Positions 1,292 through 42,437 of a stretch of DNA of 42,710 bases are shown here, piece by piece; position 1 is the stretch's first letter; every line of letters begins with the position of its first letter. The stretch covers positions 1-42,710 of the forward strand of contig QKEK01000318.1 in assembly GCA_003251775.1 (NCBI GenBank), in the 5' to 3' direction. Below the pieces are notes generated by a model, which worked only from the letters and a program-made list of their open reading frames with translations, did not search any database and was not told the DNA's origin. The DNA is from Clostridia bacterium (GTDB lineage Bacteria; Bacillota; Clostridia; DSM-8532; SZUA-474). The position numbers were made by a program, and so were the translations under genes.

Positions 1292-1375
1292 TAAAATGAT
1301 TTAGACAGAGATGGTATAAATATATGATTTTCTTTCAACCTAGATTTGTGCATGAGGAGAGGAATGGATATAAAT

Positions 1376-2347
1376 ATGATTAATACGGATAGACCCTTTG
1401 AGCTATATAATAAATTTTCTGATTATTTGGTTATGAGATACGGTGAAAAGGTTTATAAGCTTCCAATTAATCTTCCTCTGTCCTGTCCAAACAGGGATGG
1501 TACAGTTGATACGAAAGGCTGTTCATTTTGTGGAGATGAGGGAGCTGGCTTTGAAACTCTAGAGAGTAGCCTAAGTGTAGAAGAACAACTAAATAGGAAT
1601 TCAGAGTATATTAAAAACAAATATAAGGCAAAAAAGTTTATTGCTTATTTTCAGAATTATTCAAACACGTACGTAGAATATCATAGGTTTGTAGAGTATA
1701 TAAATCAGGCAGTCAAAGAGGATGTTGTTGCTATATATATTTCAACAAGACCCGATTGCATTAATGATAGTTACTTAGGATTTTTGCAATTAATTAAAGA
1801 ACAAAAGGGTGTAGATATTATTATAGAATTAGGTTTACAGACGGTAAACTATAAATCCTTGATAAGACTAAACAGGGGGCATGGGCTTGCTGAGTTTATA
1901 GATGCATGTATAAGAATAAAAAGATATAATCTAGAGATTTGCTCACATTGTATTATTGATATTCCATTTGACGATATAACAGATGTTATAGAGACAGCAA
2001 AGATAATCTCTGCTCTTAGTATAGAGCAGGTTAAATGCCACTCTTTGTATATATTGAAGGATACTGAGTTGGGTAGAATGTTTGAAGCTAATAGTATATT
2101 GCCAATTTCAATTGATAATTTTATAGAAAGGCTAATTACCTTTTTAGAATACACTTCTCCAAAGATTGTGATTCAAAGGCTCTTGGGAAGAGCACCTGAA
2201 GAGAGAAGCTTGTTTTGTAATTGGGGTAAAAGCTGGTGGAAGATTCAGGAGATGATAGAAAGCAAAATGAGGAATGAAAATAGAAAACAAGGTGATAGAT
2301 ATGATTATTTGAATGGAAGTCCTTTATTTAAAGCTAAGTATATTTAG
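1376..2347 (+). CDS. TIGR01212-type (YtqA/YhcC-like) radical SAM protein
   Basis: LPINLPLSCPNRDGTVDTKGCSFCGDEGAGF radical-SAM Cys cluster, IELGLQTVNYKSL; ATG 1376 fits the upstream GGAGAGG better than the ORF-track start 1346. Confidence 0.85.
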   Translation: MINTDRPFELYNKFSDYLVMRYGEKVYKLPINLPLSCPNRDGTVDTKGCSFCGDEGAGFETLESSLSVEEQLNRNSEYIKNKYKAKKFIAYFQNYSNTYVEYHRFVEYINQAVKEDVVAIYISTRPDCINDSYLGFLQLIKEQKGVDIIIELGLQTVNYKSLIRLNRGHGLAEFIDACIRIKRYNLEICSHCIIDIPFDDITDVIETAKIISALSIEQVKCHSLYILKDTELGRMFEANSILPISIDNFIERLITFLEYTSPKIVIQRLLGRAPEERSLFCNWGKSWWKIQEMIESKMRNENRKQGDRYDYLNGSPLFKAKYI

Positions 2348-2533: not shown

Positions 2534-3007
2534 ATGTGTAAGAATAAATTAACAGAGAAAATGTTTCACGAACTAGATGTATATATTGACTCTATAGAGG
2601 ACAAAAATGGTGCATTGATATCTGTATTGCATAAGGCACAAGATATTTTTGGGTATTTACCAAGTGAGGTTCAGCTCTATATTTCTAGAAAATTGGATAT
2701 TCCTGCGGCTAAAGTAAATGGAGTGGTAACTTTTTATTCCTATTTCACAGAAGAACCAAGAGGAGAGCATGTAATTAATGTTTGCTTTGGAACAGCGTGC
2801 TTTGTTAGGGGTGCTGAGGGGATATTGAGAGAATTAGAGGATAAGCTAAAGATAAAAGCAGGACAGACAACTCCTGACGGTAAATACAGTATAGATGCGT
2901 TAAGGTGTGTAGGTGCTTGTGGACTTGCTCCAGTCGTTATAGTTGATGGTAAAGTGTTTGGTAGAGTCAAGAAAGAGGAAGTAAGCTCATTACTTAAGGA
3001 TATATAA
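2534..3007 (+). CDS. hndA: NADH-dependent [FeFe] hydrogenase subunit A (NuoE-like, 24 kDa [2Fe-2S] protein)
   Basis: CFGTACFVRGAEGIL... and ALRCVGACGLAPV Cys ligands; first gene of the hydrogenase cluster. Confidence 0.9.
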   Translation: MCKNKLTEKMFHELDVYIDSIEDKNGALISVLHKAQDIFGYLPSEVQLYISRKLDIPAAKVNGVVTFYSYFTEEPRGEHVINVCFGTACFVRGAEGILRELEDKLKIKAGQTTPDGKYSIDALRCVGACGLAPVVIVDGKVFGRVKKEEVSSLLKDI

Positions 3008-3074
3008 GGATAAACAAGTGTATACAAGGATTAATAAGGATATATAAGGATGTATATGGGTGTATAAGATTATA
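2995..3074. repeat. Two-copy ~40 bp imperfect tandem repeat at the hndA/hndB junction
   Basis: TAAGGATATATAAGGAT at 2995-3011 repeated exactly at 3035-3051; flanks partly conserved. Confidence 0.6.
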
Positions 3075-3103
3075 AAAGTATAAATATCAAGGAGGTGCCT
3101 TCT

Positions 3104-3496: not shown

Positions 3497-3567
3497 AGGT
3501 ACGAATTGGTTTTAGATAAATACATTTCAACCCAGTTTTGTACCCGAAGAAAGGAATGGATATAATA

Positions 3568-5361
3568 ATGAGTAGATATAGAATGCATTTATTGGTATGT
3601 GGGGGGACTGGATGTAAGGCCTCACAAAGTGATAAAATTATTGAAAATCTGAATGAATTAGTTATAAAGAATGGTTTAGACAAAGAAGTACAGGTAGTAG
3701 CTACAGGATGCTTTGGTTTTTGTGAAAAGGGGCCAATAGTAAAGGTGTTGCCTGATAATGTTTTTTATATAGAGGTAAAGCCAGAGGATGCAGAAGAGCT
3801 TGTAAATGAGCATGTAATCAAAGGTAGAGTTGTTGAAAGACTTTTATATATAGAACCAACATTAAAGGAAAAAATAGAGCAGCATAAGGAAATGCCTTTT
3901 TATAAAAAACAGATTCGTATTGCTTTAAGAAACTGTGGCTTTATAAATCCAGAGGATATAAATGAATATATTTCTGTAGATGGTTATCAGGCATTAGGTA
4001 AGGTTTTAACCGAAATGACACCTCAGCAGGTAATTGAGCTAATGAAAAAGAGCGGTCTTAGAGGCAGGGGAGGCGGTGGCTTTCCAACAGGTCTTAAATG
4101 GGAATTTGCAAGAAAATATGAATCAGACATTAAATATATAATTTGTAATGCAGATGAGGGAGACCCAGGGGCATTTATGGATAGAAGTGTGCTTGAGGGG
4201 GATCCTCACAGTGTGCTAGAGGCAATGGCTATAGCTGGATATGCTATAGGAGCGAGCAAGGGATATGTATATATACGTGCAGAATACCCTCTTGCAATAG
4301 AAAGACTAGAGCTTGCTATAAAGCAAGCAAGAGAAACTGGACTGCTTGGTAATAATATCTTTGGTACAGAATTTTCCTTTGACGTTGATGTTAAGTATGG
4401 TGCGGGAGCTTTCGTTTGTGGTGAGGAAACCTCATTAATAAATTCTATAGAAGGTAACAGAGGAGAGCCAAATAATAAGCCACCATTTCCAGCAGAGAAG
4501 GGGTTATGGGCAAAACCTACTTCAGTAAATAATGTAGAGACATTTGCAAACATACCTCCAATAATACTAAAAGGTGCCGAATGGTTCAGCTCTATTGGAA
4601 CTGAAAACAGTAAGGGAACGAAGGTGTTTGCGTTAGCGGGTAAAATAAATAACGTGGGTCTAGTTGAGGTTCCAATGGGAACTACCTTGAGAGAAATAAT
4701 TTTTGATATTGGTGGCGGTATAAAGGACGGAAAGGAATTTAAGGCTGTTCAGACAGGGGGGCCTTCAGGTGGGTGTATACCAAAGCAATATTTAGACACT
4801 CCAATTGATTATGATAATTTAAGTAAAATTGGCTCTATGATGGGTTCTGGTGGGATGATTGTACTTGATGAGAGCGATTGCATGGTGAATGTAGCAAAAT
4901 TTTATTTGGAATTCACAGTAGATGAGTCTTGTGGTAAGTGTACACCATGTAGAGTAGGTAACAAGAGGCTGTATGAGATACTAACAAAAATTGTTGAGGG
5001 AAAGGGTACAGAACAGGATTTAAAGGATTTAAGGGAGCTAGGAGAGATAATAAAGGATACTGCCTTGTGTGGATTAGGTCAGACCTCTCCGAATCCTATA
5101 TTAAGCACGCTTAACTATTTTTGGGATGAATACGAGGCACATGTAAAAGACAAGAAATGTCCTTCTGGTGTGTGTACAGCTTTATTAAAATACATTATTA
5201 TTCCAGAAAAATGTGTAGGATGTACTTTGTGTGCTAGAGTGTGTCCAGTTAATTGCATTTCAGGTCAGGTTAAAAAGGTTCATGAAATTGACCAGAATAT
5301 ATGTATTAAGTGTGGTGCGTGTCAAAAGGCATGTAAGTTTAATGCGATTGAAAGAAAATAG
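3568..5361 (+). CDS. hndC: NADH-dependent [FeFe] hydrogenase NuoF-like flavoprotein subunit, HndC-like
   Basis: N-terminal thioredoxin-like ferredoxin domain, GLRGRGGGGFPTGLKWE, ESCGKCTPCRVG, C-terminal two 4Fe-4S motifs (CVGCTLCARVCP, CIKCGACQKAC). Confidence 0.92.
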   Translation: MSRYRMHLLVCGGTGCKASQSDKIIENLNELVIKNGLDKEVQVVATGCFGFCEKGPIVKVLPDNVFYIEVKPEDAEELVNEHVIKGRVVERLLYIEPTLKEKIEQHKEMPFYKKQIRIALRNCGFINPEDINEYISVDGYQALGKVLTEMTPQQVIELMKKSGLRGRGGGGFPTGLKWEFARKYESDIKYIICNADEGDPGAFMDRSVLEGDPHSVLEAMAIAGYAIGASKGYVYIRAEYPLAIERLELAIKQARETGLLGNNIFGTEFSFDVDVKYGAGAFVCGEETSLINSIEGNRGEPNNKPPFPAEKGLWAKPTSVNNVETFANIPPIILKGAEWFSSIGTENSKGTKVFALAGKINNVGLVEVPMGTTLREIIFDIGGGIKDGKEFKAVQTGGPSGGCIPKQYLDTPIDYDNLSKIGSMMGSGGMIVLDESDCMVNVAKFYLEFTVDESCGKCTPCRVGNKRLYEILTKIVEGKGTEQDLKDLRELGEIIKDTALCGLGQTSPNPILSTLNYFWDEYEAHVKDKKCPSGVCTALLKYIIIPEKCVGCTLCARVCPVNCISGQVKKVHEIDQNICIKCGACQKACKFNAIERK

Positions 5362-17423: not shown

Positions 17424-18665
17424 ATGCAAAAAGTTGAGTTGCTTGCACCAGCAGGGGATATGGAAAAATTACAAATGGCAATTGTATACGGAGCAGACGC
17501 TGTATATTTTGCAGGGAAAAAGTATGGCTTAAGAGCTGCTGCTGGAAATTTTTCGTTAGATGAAATGAAGGAAGGAATAAGCTTACTTCATTCTATGGGT
17601 AAAAAAGGCTATTTGACCATGAATATGATACCTCATAACAAGGATTTATCTGAAATAGACGAATATATAAAAAGGGTTTCTGAGATAGGTGTAGATGGAG
17701 TAATTCTATCTGATCCTAGTATTCTACAAGCTGTAAAGGACATAAATCCATGTATGGAAATTCACTTAAGTACACAGGCAAATAATACAAATTGGAAAAG
17801 TGCTGAGTTTTGGTATAAACAAGGGGTAAAACGCGTTGTACTTGCTCGTGAGCTTTCTTTAGAAGAAATAAATGAGATTAATAGCAAGAAGCCTGTAGAT
17901 TTGGAACTTGAAGCATTTGTCCATGGAGCTATGTGTATTTCTTACTCTGGACGTTGTCTGTTAAGTAATTATATGGTGCATAGAGATGCAAATCAAGGTG
18001 ATTGTGCTCATCCCTGTAGATGGAATTATCATCTTGTGGAGGAAACACGTCCTGGTGAGTATATGCCAGTATATGAAGATGAGACAGGTACCTTTATTTT
18101 TAATTCAAAGGATCTTTGTATGATAAAACATATACCTCAGCTTATTGAAAGTGGTATATATAGCTTTAAGATAGAAGGAAGGATGAAAAGCTCATTCTAT
18201 GTTGCTACTATTGTACGTGCATACAGAAAGGCAATTGATGAATATTACAATAGTATTAAACAAGAATTACCATATAAATATAATACTGAATGGTATGATG
18301 AGGTTTCTAAGGTGAGTAACAGGAGCTTTACCACAGCCTTTTTCTTCGGTAAGCCTGGAAAGGACGAACAGAATTACGGAACTAGCTCGTATGTAAAAAA
18401 CTATGATTTTATTGGTCGGGTTCTTGAGTACAGCAATGAGACAGGTATAGCTGTAGTTGAACAGAGAAATAGGATTTTTAAAGGGGAAGATATAGAGATT
18501 ATGAATCCAACAAAGGGTATTGTTAAACAGAAGATTCACTGGATGAAAAATGATAGGGATGAGCTTATAGATGTAGCACCTCATCCAAAGATGATTATTA
18601 AGCTTCCTGTTGATGAAGTGGTAGAGCAATATGCAATGCTAAGGAGAGAAATAGTAGTCCAATAG
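17424..18665 (+). CDS. U32 family peptidase (YrrO/TrhP-like)
   Basis: VELLAPAGDMEKLQMAIVYGADAVYFAG, FVHGAMCISYSGRCLLSNYMVHRDANQGDCAHPCRW. Confidence 0.93.
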   Translation: MQKVELLAPAGDMEKLQMAIVYGADAVYFAGKKYGLRAAAGNFSLDEMKEGISLLHSMGKKGYLTMNMIPHNKDLSEIDEYIKRVSEIGVDGVILSDPSILQAVKDINPCMEIHLSTQANNTNWKSAEFWYKQGVKRVVLARELSLEEINEINSKKPVDLELEAFVHGAMCISYSGRCLLSNYMVHRDANQGDCAHPCRWNYHLVEETRPGEYMPVYEDETGTFIFNSKDLCMIKHIPQLIESGIYSFKIEGRMKSSFYVATIVRAYRKAIDEYYNSIKQELPYKYNTEWYDEVSKVSNRSFTTAFFFGKPGKDEQNYGTSSYVKNYDFIGRVLEYSNETGIAVVEQRNRIFKGEDIEIMNPTKGIVKQKIHWMKNDRDELIDVAPHPKMIIKLPVDEVVEQYAMLRREIVVQ

Positions 18666-18680
18666 TGTTGAAATAATTTT

Positions 18681-18790
18681 TGCGATTTGATAAAAATATT
18701 GATAATAAACCATTAAGTTTTTAAAATCGCCAAGACAAAATGGCTTGGAAACCAATTATAGCAGTTATTTTTGCAAAATGTATGGGGGAG
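18681..18790 (+). ncRNA. Putative structured leader RNA, copy A (upstream of the HK-like gene)
   Basis: ATCGCCAAGACAAAATGGCTTGG...GCAGTTATTTTTGC...TATGGGGGAG; shares sequence and helices with copies B and C. Confidence 0.6.
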
Positions 18791-18795
18791 ATAAC

Positions 18796-19809
18796 ATGAA
18801 GAGGTTTTTTGATTTTTTTAAGGATAAACTAATATTTACATTAGGCTTTATAGTTCTAACAATAGTATTTTCTATTTTTTTTCTAAGCATCCCGCAAAAA
18901 AATTCCTTTCCATTGCTCATACTTCTTACAGCAATGTTTATTTATGTGGCTGTTATAGGAGTTGAGTACTATAAATATATTAGGTTTGTTAAGGAGCTTA
19001 TTGAATTCCAAAAGGATTCTGATTTTTTTGTGAAAGCAAACTCAACCGAACAAAGATTTTGTCTAGAGATGATAAATATAATAAAAAAGCAAGCCTGCAG
19101 GGAAAAAGATAATAATATAGAAAAGAATGATCTACTAAAGAATACAGTAAATAAATGGGGATTAATGCAAAAACAAACAGCTACTCAATTGATAGAATTA
19201 ATAAATAGTACAACAAGGCTTAGCATACCAAGAGAGGTTAAAGAACCAATTGAGGACATTAAGTACTACTGTGATAAGATATTAAACGATACAAAAATGC
19301 TCTCAGAACTAACAAAGCTAGATGAAGTGTCTGATAATAAAGAGATGGATAAATATAATTTAGTAGATCAAGTGACATACATAATTGAAAGTAATAAAAA
19401 GTCATTTAGTTATAATGGAGTAACGCCTGAAAACAAAATTTCAGAAGAAGAGGTTTACATAACAACTGACTTGAAATGGAATGGAATAATGATTAGGCAT
19501 ATACTCTCAAATGCAGTTAAATTTTCATGTATCAAAGGTGAAAGTACTACGATAACCTTTGATATTATTAAGAAAGACCATGATGTTATATTGGAAATAC
19601 ATGATCAAGGAATAGGAATTCCAGAAGATGAAATAAATAAAATTTTTCTTCCATTCTTTACAGGTAAGAATGGAAGTCTATACTCTGATTCAACAGGATT
19701 AGGACTATATATTAGTAAATGTATAGCAGATGGCTTGGGGCATGAACTAAAAATAGAGTCGGATCATGAAAATGGAACGAAGGTTAGTATTGTTTATATG
19801 CGTGCTTGA
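18796..19809 (+). CDS. Membrane sensor histidine-kinase-like protein (HATPase_c), with no His at the expected H-box
   Basis: N-box MIRHILSNAVKF, G1 DQGIGIPEDE, G2 STGLGLYISK; two TM segments; ATG 18796 after GGGGGAG, not ORF-track 18745. Confidence 0.85.
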   Translation: MKRFFDFFKDKLIFTLGFIVLTIVFSIFFLSIPQKNSFPLLILLTAMFIYVAVIGVEYYKYIRFVKELIEFQKDSDFFVKANSTEQRFCLEMINIIKKQACREKDNNIEKNDLLKNTVNKWGLMQKQTATQLIELINSTTRLSIPREVKEPIEDIKYYCDKILNDTKMLSELTKLDEVSDNKEMDKYNLVDQVTYIIESNKKSFSYNGVTPENKISEEEVYITTDLKWNGIMIRHILSNAVKFSCIKGESTTITFDIIKKDHDVILEIHDQGIGIPEDEINKIFLPFFTGKNGSLYSDSTGLGLYISKCIADGLGHELKIESDHENGTKVSIVYMRA

Positions 19810-27308: not shown

Positions 27309-27431
27309 CTGTATTTAGCTAATTCTCTGAGAAAAGAAGTGGCTTTTTTTTGATTAGGAAAATAATTTAAAAATCAGTAATAAGTTTGTACAATTTTTAA
27401 TATGTATATGGTGTGAGGAGAAGATTATAAT

Positions 27432-27548
27432 GTAAGCGTTTAACGAAATTTAAATATGATAGAAATTCTAATGAAATTTATTAAATCGCCAAGACAAAAT
27501 GTCTTGAAGGCCGCTTACGGTGGTTATTTGTCCACAGGCATGGGGGAG
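27432..27548 (+). ncRNA. Putative structured leader RNA, copy B (upstream of spoIIIAA)
   Basis: GTAAGCGTTT...ATCGCCAAGACAAAATGTCTTGAAGGCCGCTTACGGTGGTTATTTGTCCACAGGCATGGGGGAG; stems CAAGAC/GTCTTG and GTGG/CCAC. Confidence 0.65.
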
Positions 27549-27553
27549 TTAAT

Positions 27554-28537
27554 ATGAATTATGAATGCTTTAATAAGGAAATACTTTGCTATTTACCAGA
27601 TAGGGTGATTGAGCCTATTAGAATGATTGACTACAGTATTTTAAATAACATAGAAGAAATAAGGCTTAGAGTAAACAGGCCTCCTATGGTCAATATATCT
27701 GGTAAAGATTTCATACTAACTCAAAAAGGATTATGCTTACCACATGATTATGAGAATTATATAGTAGATAACATTATAATCATTTCCTCAAGTGATATGA
27801 GAAGATGCTTTGACAAAGTAAGCAAAAGCTCAGCCTTTGTATTCGCTGAGGATATAAATAAGGGATTTATTACCTTAGAGGGTGGACATAGAGTTGGCAT
27901 AAGCGGTAAGGTAGTAACTAATAACGGCATTGTTAAGCAACTAAAAGAAATTTCTGGACTTAACTTCAGAATTGCCCGAGAAATAATTGGATGCTCTGAG
28001 AATTGTATTAATGAAATAATAAGAAATTCTATAGATATATACAATACACTTATTGTATCACCACCTCAGTGTGGGAAGACAACGTTGCTAAGAGACATTA
28101 CTAGGGTTATAAGCTCTGGGTACAAAAAGATTGAGTTTGAAGGGGTAAAGGTAGGTTTAATAGATGAAAGAGGTGAAATAGCAGCATGTATTAATGGAGT
28201 TCCACAGAATAATATCGGCTTAAGGACTGACGTTTTAGATTGCTGTCCTAAAGCAATTGGAATGCTTATGCTATTAAGAAGTATGTCACCAAGAGTTATT
28301 ATAACAGATGAATTAGGGGACAAGCATGATATAGATGCAATATTGCAGATTCATAATGCGGGTGTGAGAATTATTGCTACGGTTCATGGTTATGATTTGG
28401 AGGAACTTAAGACAAAGCCTTATATAAAGGATATTATTGCAAGCAACGTCTTTGAAAGAGTTTTAATACTAGATACAGGCTTTAAAAGGGGAGTATTAAA
28501 GAGTGTTATAAAAACCATGGAAGAGTTAATAGGTTAG
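27554..28537 (+). CDS. spoIIIAA: Stage III sporulation protein AA
   Basis: NIEEIRLRVNRPPMV, VSPPQCGKTTLLRDITR Walker A, GLIDERGEIAA; followed by AB-AH. Confidence 0.95.
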   Translation: MNYECFNKEILCYLPDRVIEPIRMIDYSILNNIEEIRLRVNRPPMVNISGKDFILTQKGLCLPHDYENYIVDNIIIISSSDMRRCFDKVSKSSAFVFAEDINKGFITLEGGHRVGISGKVVTNNGIVKQLKEISGLNFRIAREIIGCSENCINEIIRNSIDIYNTLIVSPPQCGKTTLLRDITRVISSGYKKIEFEGVKVGLIDERGEIAACINGVPQNNIGLRTDVLDCCPKAIGMLMLLRSMSPRVIITDELGDKHDIDAILQIHNAGVRIIATVHGYDLEELKTKPYIKDIIASNVFERVLILDTGFKRGVLKSVIKTMEELIG

Positions 28538-28650
28538 CGTTTTTAAAACTTCCGATTTAATAAAAAATCATTTAAGTTTTAATAATCGCCAAGACAAAAT
28601 ATCTTGAAAACAGCTTACAGTGGTCATATGTACCACAGGTATGAGTGAGT
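28534..28650 (+). ncRNA. Putative structured intergenic RNA, copy C (between spoIIIAA and spoIIIAB)
   Basis: ATCGCCAAGACAAAATATCTTGAAAACAGCTTACAGTGGTCATATGTACCACAGGTATGAGTGAG; stem GTGGT/ACCAC. Confidence 0.65.
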
Positions 28651-28677
28651 AATACAGCAAAAAGGGAGAGCTTGTAA

Positions 28678-29196
28678 ATGATACTTAAAATTTTAGGAAG
28701 CGTACTGGTTATTATTGCTTCCAGTGCAGTGGGATATTATATTTCCTTTACAAAGAGAAAAAGAGTAGCTGATATTGAGGATTTTATTAGTGCCTTTATT
28801 TTTTTTAGAAATGAAGTGGAATACTCCTCTCAGATTCTTTCTAAGGTATTTAAGCAAACATCTAAAGTAATTTCTAAAAGGGTAGCTATATTTTTTAATG
28901 AGACAGGAGTCTTAATAGAAGAAAACAAAATCTCCGCGAGTGATACATGGAAAATGATTGTTAAAAAAAATCATGAACGACTTTATTTAGATAATACTGA
29001 TATAGATATTCTATATGAATTTGGTGAAAAACTTGGAGTTTCTTATATTGAAGGACATTTAAGTAATATTACATTAATCATTGAAAAACTGAAAATTCAA
29101 CTTGAAAGAGCAAAAGCTGAATATAATAGAAATGGAAAGATGTTTAGAATCTTAGGAATAATAAGTGGAATTACTTTGGTCATAGTTTTAGTGTAA
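28678..29196 (+). CDS. spoIIIAB: Stage III sporulation protein AB
   Basis: Size, N- and C-terminal TM segments and operon position; KRVADIEDFISAFIFFRNEVEYS. Confidence 0.88.
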   Translation: MILKILGSVLVIIASSAVGYYISFTKRKRVADIEDFISAFIFFRNEVEYSSQILSKVFKQTSKVISKRVAIFFNETGVLIEENKISASDTWKMIVKKNHERLYLDNTDIDILYEFGEKLGVSYIEGHLSNITLIIEKLKIQLERAKAEYNRNGKMFRILGIISGITLVIVLV

Positions 29197-39879: not shown

Positions 39880-39965
39880 TTCATGTGTAGGAGGAATTTC
39901 TACGTAAACTCTCAAAGTCACTTTTGGCTAATTATTTATCAAATCGGAAGTTTTAAAAACGCTTA
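39880..39965 (-). ncRNA. Diverged copy D of the putative structured RNA element, 3' of the chemoreceptor gene
   Basis: 23-nt block AGCGTTTTTAAAACTTCCGATTT (39963-39941, minus) identical to copy C (28536-28558); hairpin GTAG...CTAC downstream. Confidence 0.45.
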
Positions 39966-42437
39966 CAAATTAAGCTTATTATACGCCTCATCCATTCTTA
40001 AACACAGCTTATTCATATCCTCAATAATACTATTAGTAATATCACTATTTTCAATATCCTTACTAAGAGCATGAATATCAGAAGACCTAGAATTTATCTT
40101 ATTAATTAGCTCAGACATTTGTTGATTTAAGTCGGAGGTGGTGTTGGTATTATTGCTTAGGACATCTAGAGAGTCTACCATAAAGCCAACACGTGAGATA
40201 ATATCAGAGATATTAATATGAACCTGATTAATTTTCTCAACACCCTGCTCTACACCAGAAACACCTTCTCCCATATAATCAGCAGTTGTTTGAATCTGAG
40301 TTTGTATATCCTTAAGCTGTTTCTTTATTTCACCTGCCGCACGTCCACTGGCTTCAGCAAGCTTTCTTATTTCATCTGCAAGTACAGCAAAGCCTCTTCC
40401 TTCAGAGCCAGCACGAGCAGCTTCTATTGCAGCATTTAATGCTAGTAGATTTGTTCTAGATGCAATATCTGTAATAGTATTAGTAATCTCACCTATTTTC
40501 CCAGAGGATTGATCTAACTGATTCATTGAAACTGATATATCCTTTACTATTGTAGAAGCTTTTGAAATAGCATCAAATGCTTCCTGAGTCGTTTTCTCTC
40601 CAGTTTTTGTTATTTCAAGAGCTTGTCGTCCTTCCTCTGGTGAAATAATTTTATCTAGGGTGTTTTTATTGGAACCAGAAATCATTTTATTAATATTCTT
40701 TGTAGCAGCAGTGCTTGAATTAGCTAAATTAATTGATATTTTATCTGAACTCATTTCTTTTAGTAAATTAACTACATTTTGTGTTATAGATTCCAAGCCT
40801 GTTTTGGATTTAGTAAAGGTAGTAGTAAATTCTGATTTCAAGGAGAACATTTCATTTTTGGCATTTGAGATATCTAAGAACACCCTTTCTCTATTATCTA
40901 ATATCGAGTTCAGTGTTGTTACCAATTCAGACATTTCTTCAAACATATTGTCATCATTTGCTCGCACATTAAGATCCCCCATATCAGCCTTGATAAGAGA
41001 TTGATTAAGCTCCTTAATTGGTTTAACAATTGAATTAGATACAATAAGAGAAATAACAATTCCAAAAAACAATGAAAACACAACAATTATTCCTATACCA
41101 ATAGCTACATAGAGTTTAATACGTTCTGATTGTTGAATGTTTTCTGAAATCATATCATTTATTGTAACTTTAGCTTCTAGCATGGTGTTTTTAGTTAAAT
41201 CGCTAAAAATTTGCATTAAGCTATCAGTGTTTTGTACAATTTGATTCTTTGTTTGTTTTATAGCTTGTTGATTTTTGTTAACACTATCATAAAGCTGTAT
41301 AAATTTATCTGTAGCCTTTAAAACACTGTTTAATTCTTTATTAGTGTCGCTAGGATTAATTGCGGCGATTTTCTTTGAAGACTCCTTTATACTATTAACT
41401 ATTGATTCCAATGTGCTATTATTTGAGTCAGATGTAAGATTAAGCATGGAATTCACAAATAACTCATTGATTGCATAACAGTCTTTAGATATTAAATTGA
41501 CATTATTTAACACCTCGATCTGTTTATTTAAATTTCTTATGTTAAGGAGGTTTGTTTGGCTTTTTAGAATATCAGTATTAGATAATAGACTTGAATAAAT
41601 ATTAGATAGTATCTGTATTTCTACGTGTATTTGCTTAATAATACTATCAATTTCCTGTAGATTTGAAGATGAAAATTTAGGTGGTGCTATCATATTAGCT
41701 TCTTCAGTAAAAAGCTTAAATATATTTGCTGAGTACTCAGAAATGCTTTTATTTAAGTCAATTATAAGCGTTGATATTAAATCAGTTTGTTTCTTGATGT
41801 CCGTTATGGCTTCTGAATTCTCCTGACCACTTATCTTTATTTCATTATAAAGCTTTCTTAATTCTTCAACAATCATTACGTTTTCATTGTACATAGAAGT
41901 AATGCTTCTATTAGCTATACCACTTATTTCATTTAAGCTGGATTGAATACTATTGAGTTCATTAAGTACTATTTGATAATCAGCTTTCGTCTGCTGTTCA
42001 TATTTATTGTTTAAAAGAGGTGTAATTTCGTCTCTGTAAAGCACAGAAATCTGTTGACTTTGCTGACTTAGCTTATTTAAATTTATAGACTCAATCTTAT
42101 TGGTAACATCTACCGTTATATTATCTGATGAATAATAGTCTTGTAATTGCGTTAATATTGATTTAGACTTTTCATTAATTGTATCATCATATTGCTTAAG
42201 CTCTTGCTCTGTTGCAGGAAGCCCCTTAATTATTGTTTGCGAAAGAAAAAGCTGTTTATTTATATATAGGCTCTCTAGCTCATTTAATTCAGAACCTAAT
42301 TGTTTATTAGTTTTTATGTTTTTTACACCATCAATAATATATTTTTGTCCTAAAAAAGTAGAAATAACAAACAAAAGCAGAGATATTAGGATAACAGATA
42401 TAAAGCCTAATACAATCTTATTTCGACACTTTTTCAT
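39963..42437 (-). CDS. Large methyl-accepting chemotaxis protein (824 aa)
   Basis: N-terminal TM, long helical periplasmic region, second TM + HAMP-like region, [35 protein letters not shown]. Confidence 0.93.

Follow-up and report, generated by a model that had tools for sequence, protein, structure and literature searches.

Immediately in front of spoIIIAA lies a conserved, foldable sequence that recurs elsewhere in the window, the 42,710-nt stretch of DNA analysed here as a whole. An earlier note on this DNA had suggested that the sequence, as a structured RNA, would add post-transcriptional control to the spoIIIA operon. The locus therefore raises the question of whether the sequence is a regulator of spoIIIA or reached this position by other means. 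We consider it likely that it is a non-autonomous mobile repeat of a PATE- or REP-like kind, which inserts 3′ of TNAATAT and rebuilds start codons, as at spoIIIAA.

Copy B at the spoIIIAA start codon

The downstream gene is indeed spoIIIAA, as its reading frame (27554..28537) matches Spore_III_AA (Pfam PF19568, E 7e-92). All features of this locus lie on the plus strand. Copy B, delimited by sequence and covariance model, is a full-length, 124-nt copy of the repeat (27432..27555; GTAAGCG ... GGGGGAGTTAATAT) situated within the spoIIIAA start codon. The core quoted earlier was found in place, with GTAAGCG beginning at 27432, exactly the noted start. That the core ends on the spoIIIAA ribosome-binding site holds for the Shine-Dalgarno (SD) sequence GGGGGAG, which ends at 27548; the element itself runs on to 27555 with TTAATAT.

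Reading downstream, the native spoIIIAA SD, GAGGAG (27415..27420; sequence and anti-SD pairing), is stranded 5′ of copy B and 9 nt before the AT at 27430-27431. The host target TTATAAT (27425..27431; family consensus TNAATAT), recognised by flank comparison, borders the insertion point. Copy B follows, and then G and the coding sequence. As the native leader survives upstream and ends in AT, with the G after the element, we conclude that the spoIIIAA ATG was split by the insertion. In the rebuilt ATG (27554..27556), AT comes from copy B and G from the host. Deleting copy B in silico yields GAGGAG-AAGATTATA-ATG-AAT-TAT-GAA, an ordinary start, and the element-free site would read GAGGAGAAGATTATAATGAATTATGAA. 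The first bases of copy B turn the old start into a start-stop, ATGTAA (27430..27435), to which we ascribe a putative function: AUG-UAA may alter ribosome traffic. At the other end, the element-borne SD GGGGGAG (27542..27548; sequence and anti-SD pairing) is the predicted SD of spoIIIAA, followed by the element's own 3′ end TTAATAT (27549..27555; flank comparison), which equals the target consensus. With the old start reading ATG-TAA, spoIIIAA translation would have to begin at GGGGGAG-TTAAT-ATG in copy B and would presumably be driven by the new SD. Copy B extends over the leader and includes the ribosome-binding site of spoIIIAA, so it will be part of any transcript that arrives from upstream.

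The earlier note had named absence of the element upstream of spoIIIAA in all close relatives as a refutation, and at the order level this absence was observed: the 28 same-order spoIIIAA leaders inspected mostly show a plain SD-ATG, with a few less clear starts, and the element occurs in none. In many of them a conserved CATACATT-type box precedes the SD and ATG. Separately, GGCATACATTTAAGCATGTCC upstream of spoIIIAA, common to many same-order relatives (L190-L218), is a sigma-E -10-like box in an imperfect inverted repeat.

The window contains three full copies (A, B and C) on the plus strand and one left-half remnant on the minus strand. The identity of copies A and B as one element was borne out: a direct-repeat family is present at 18704, 27463 and 28563, and these copies score 134, 122 and 85 bits with a covariance model built from genome-wide copies, the three among them. 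Copy A (18652..18802, plus strand; covariance model, sequence) is left-degenerate; a histidine-kinase-like ATPase gene (PF02518) takes both its SD and its ATG (18796) from the right end of this copy. Copy C (28524..28661, plus strand; covariance model, sequence) lies between spoIIIAA and spoIIIAB (28678-29196; profile match to Spore_III_AB). On the left, copy C overlaps the stop of spoIIIAA, and it does not form the start of spoIIIAB, which has its own SD (AAAAAGGGAGAG) downstream of copy C. The degenerate left-half copy (39927..39973, minus strand; covariance model) lies between convergent genes, and its GTAA overlaps the stop of a chemotaxis-receptor gene. Two further repeats of the window may be recorded here. 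A 156-nt inverted repeat, 99% identical, occupies both contig ends (127-282 and 42555-42710), so the contig was broken off within a dispersed repeat, and a TAAGGATATA-like ten-base tandem repeat lies at 2995-3084.

A dispersed repeat family with a conserved fold

The whole 3.42-Mb genome, a single, incomplete draft assembly, harbours about 140 copies of the repeat: 143 by the covariance model (E<=0.01) and 140, truncated copies included, by nhmmer. A pattern search returned 66 core matches, and a conserved 20-mer of the repeat has 0 expected matches in shuffled sequence. The unit is 124 nt long, contains no ORF of its own, and runs from GTAAGCG on the left to GGNGGAGTTAATAT on the right (also written GTAAGCG.../...GGAGTTAATAT). 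The family is spread over tandem arrays, the gaps between convergent genes and the upstream regions of unrelated genes, and many copies adjoin no gene start. A called downstream gene lies in sense with the copy in 78/100 cases. The leading strand holds 50/73 copies, a bias confounded with gene orientation (13 informative cases, 8:5).

Relatives were compared at the order and class level. The covariance model gave no convincing match in 32 same-order genomes, with one marginal hit (E 0.0055, L188), and did not detect the repeat in about 290 same-class genomes. Neither an exact-pattern scan of 85,462 GTDB species genomes nor a search of plasmid sequences returned it. In the window, the repeat is without a match in Rfam 15 at the gathering score, with only chance-level matches at E<=5. 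A pattern search of IMG/VR found the repeat on two contigs of metagenome 3300028422. Overlap with the genome was checked for one of the two: IMGVR_UViG_3300028422_001996, a 'viral' contig (L186) with two repeat copies, is 100% identical over 2861 bases to genome contig C232, and this metagenome is the probable origin of the genome.

Structurally, the repeat folds into a three-way junction, in which GTAAGCG/CGCTTAC (P0) closes one long and one short hairpin; a further hairpin lies on the 3′ side. In copy B, the P0 5′ strand GTAAGCG (27432..27438) pairs with the 3′ strand CGCTTAC (27512..27518), enclosing the long hairpin H1 (27439..27485) and the hairpin H2, CAAGAC-AAAAT-GTCTTG (27490..27506). 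In an alignment of 37 copies, both strands of H1 change together among the subfamilies TTTAACGAACTTC, TTTTTAAAACTTCC, TTAAAAAAGCTTCC and TTAATCAAGCTTC, with two-sided changes at six pairs (55 such cells vs 19 in shuffles). H2 (CAAGAC/GTCTTG) and P0 are conserved and show little informative variation, and the 3′ hairpin has two-sided changes at one pair, a weak covariation. The consensus fold reaches -41.5 kcal/mol as RNA (z -5.6 vs shuffles) and -29.3 as DNA (z -7.1 vs shuffles). Copy B alone folds modestly (z -1.8), its long hairpin being partly decayed. The element SD adjoins the 3′ hairpin, and part of it is paired in the consensus fold of the RNA. An alternative helix, AACCGC/GTGGTT, was rejected as its pairing is broken in the GGCG subfamily. 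As read from the alignment, these changes show that folding of one strand mattered during the spread of the family, with RNA and single-stranded DNA alike compatible. The proposal of a structured RNA in the spoIIIAA leader thus survives in part: the covariation is real, and the element overlaps the leader and carries the ribosome-binding site, but it recurs in about 140 copies and is not specific to spoIIIA.

Target site and placement at start codons

Outside tandem arrays, host TNAATAT lies directly 5′ of the copies, and the element ends on the right in TTAATAT, preceded by an SD-like GGNGGAG. Of 29 young copies, 12 depart from TTAATAT at position -6 on the left and 2 on the right. Because the left heptamer varies and the right is constant, the left is the host target and the right is the element's own. 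In none of the 20 deviating copies compared do the two sides share a deviation, hence there is no target duplication. Terminal inverted repeats are absent (5/20 matches between one end and the reverse complement of the other). The flanks show, as far as sequence can, a site-specific insertion without duplication. Some copies sit within another repeat family, dozens of whose copies preserve the uninterrupted site ATAAAT|ATGTAACAACGC. Such insertions lie in a second abundant family of repeats, GCGTTGTTTTGAATAAATATACATAAACACTGCACTTATTGAGTATAATTTTGCATAAATATGTAACAACGCAAAAAGC, which occupies at least 70 sites in this genome (L153, L159, L146 and many other contigs). Tandem neighbours mostly belong to different subfamilies and are about as identical as random pairs, which indicates that arrays grow by separate, repeated insertions at the TTAATAT end. 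Genic TNAATAT sites number 1542, outnumber extragenic ones by about 2:1, and are unused; no copy was found with its right end inside a called ORF.

In 25/114 right-end copies, a coding ORF begins at the ATG made up of the terminal ..AT and the next host base, and ORF starts 2-40 nt from the right end peak at a single offset (22/40). By annotation, the split start codons belong to the sporulation-channel gene, acetylglutamate kinase and other genes. Profile matches from residues 2-6 back natural N-termini for a NifS-type cysteine desulfurase, YaaA, YhgE and an ACT-domain protein. Start codons account for 16/61 copies vs 6/731 extragenic TNAATAT sites; restricted to copies with the exact target, the proportion is 5/29 (p 4e-6). 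A native SD stands at the proper distance 5′ of the left junction in 8/16 non-tandem start-codon copies vs 4/45 others (Fisher p 0.0012). The gene calling behind these counts relied on a simple codon-usage model in which a ribosome-binding site earns a bonus; the p-values are strong but not exact. The stranded native SDs indicate that start codons were really entered. In the other 8/16 start-codon copies an upstream SD is not recognisable. Across all 16, left flanks are more degenerate (5/16 with the exact target), so some of the 16 may be old insertions that selection has retained, and not proof of targeting. Such placement is compatible both with targeting of RBS-like sites and with random insertion followed by survival and later dependence. 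Another short repeat with an RBS-like end and ATG (AGGAATGGATATAAATATG) was also observed at gene starts, at window positions 1333-1382 and 3525-3574 and, in similar form, in L120, L015 and L038, and may represent a second family of repeats located on start codons.

We propose that the element would insert directly 3′ of host TNAATAT without target duplication. Where the target supplies the ..AT of a start codon, the product would be native SD - ATG|TAA - folded element - new SD - TTAAT-AT|G. A start codon would reappear 124 nt further on, and element-borne signals would keep the gene translatable. A bolder and less likely reading is a mobile-element class adapted to translation-initiation sites, in which one RBS-like unit (GGAG-TTAATAT|G) serves both as target and as 3′ terminus. 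Such elements might prefer start codons, convert the old start to AUG-UAA, replace SD and start, and spread through gene starts without destroying genes; each gene entered would be left with a folded leader that might also act as a translational switch.

Three other readings were weighed against the mobile repeat. A more conventional account, rather unlikely in our estimation, holds that an ordinary intergenic MITE or REP inserted upstream, that copies ending in SD-TTAATATG were later adopted as starts, and that start codons were never entered. Such exaptation fits the start-codon copies, which tend to be older or more decayed than the rest and half of which lack an upstream SD; some right-end-only copies also serve as starts. 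The native SD correctly spaced before AT| in the remaining half, spoIIIAA included, would be unexpected if the repeat had landed upstream of the gene, and relatives show SD-ATG where this genome has SD-AT|element. Improbable to a greater degree is a riboswitch- or attenuator-like cis-regulatory RNA exerting post-transcriptional control over spoIIIA. The conserved fold, covarying in H1 and to a weak degree in the 3′ hairpin, the partly paired SD beside that hairpin and the predominantly sense orientation are what such an RNA would display. Set against this are the many copies before unrelated genes, in arrays, between convergent genes or away from starts, the decayed H1 and modest fold of copy B, and the lack both of an Rfam family match and of conservation upstream of spoIIIAA in relatives. 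The spoIIIA-associated regulatory RNA of the earlier note is not supported; the start-codon position of copy B is explained by insertion at AT|G. Regulation of a post-transcriptional kind by the element is nonetheless possible.

A mini-intron, spliced from the mRNA to restore AU|G, is hardly credible. It would account for the precise AT|G split, and the genome has group II introns; yet 124 nt is too short for a group II ribozyme, the element carries a redundant SD, no copies lie inside ORFs despite the excess of genic targets, and the ends of the genome's group II introns are unrelated. On these grounds the mini-intron was rejected. Taken together, the repeat, its structure, its junction logic and the rebuilt ATG at spoIIIAA can be read directly from the DNA, and they are best accommodated by the mobile repeat.

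Mobilisation and comparison with known systems

Small mobile repeats in bacteria are usually viewed as tolerated intergenic litter or as terminators. Insertion combined with the repair of start codons offers a testable route by which a selfish repeat could rewire translation initiation and become indispensable, with the caution that a structured, covarying leader is not always a riboregulator.

The mobile repeat possibly spread as single-stranded DNA through a Y1 transposase (IS200/IS605- or RAYT-type) acting in trans. No autonomous partner with matching ends was found among the Y1, TnpB and group II reverse-transcriptase loci of the genome, and a search for IS110 genes found none. The sole near-intact Y1 gene is RAYT-like (L055), with no repeat copies beside it, and the ends of the other Y1/TnpB elements (degenerate IS200-type, TnpB genes) differ from those of the repeat. 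As the genome is incomplete, the partner may be missing from it. The two group II introns (L219, L220) are unrelated to the repeat; that of L219 follows a terminator hairpin and has an intact reverse transcriptase.

IS200/IS605 elements, for example ISDra2 with its target TTGAT, insert 3′ of a fixed AT-rich pentanucleotide that equals the right-end cleavage site. The repeat shares with them the lack of duplication, the hairpin ends and an AT-rich target equivalent to its own right end, but is without a transposase gene, and a single-strand mechanism is putative for it. The terminal inverted repeats and target duplication of DDE-type MITEs are both absent.

The bcr repeats of Bacillus cereus are likewise lineage-specific and interspersed, often transcribed within UTRs, but bcr1-3 are MITE-like and unrelated in sequence (PMC3446304). 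BOX, RUP and SPRITE of Streptococcus pneumoniae are small, structured interspersed repeats of leaders and intergenic regions, and large BOX elements can supply ORF start codons (PMC3049150). Unlike the repeat here, BOX and RUP resemble MITEs in having terminal inverted repeats and a matching transposase, and the available part of that paper describes no precise landing at AT|G that rebuilds an SD. A targeted, non-exhaustive search of the repeat literature, as far as its texts were available, likewise did not find start-codon landing with a rebuilt SD. GTAG-tagged REPs are 20-40 nt hairpins mobilised by RAYT transposases (PMC3733652, PMC2817692). Our repeat resembles them as a high-copy extragenic hairpin repeat with compensatory stem subfamilies, a GTAA motif before the hairpin and one RAYT-like gene in the genome. 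It departs from the definition in PMC3733652 in its length of 124 nt and its GTAA tag, and further in its head-to-tail arrays, rare in REPs, and in a RAYT-like gene without flanking copies.

PATEs of Haloquadratum are palindrome-associated transposable elements related to IS605-type transposons (PMC3119063). The repeat differs from them in its three-way junction core, and no IS605-type element with matching ends is present; an SD-like 3′ end and start-codon insertion are not among the PATE features in the available part of PMC3119063. Three of the four defining features of PATEs were found, the fourth, termini related to an IS605-type transposon, being absent from this incomplete genome. As in PATEs, the repeat is too short for a transposase, has many copies, inserts into another repeat family, lacks terminal inverted repeats and target duplication, and bears near-terminal hairpins, with palindromes close to both ends (H1 on the left, the 3′ hairpin on the right).
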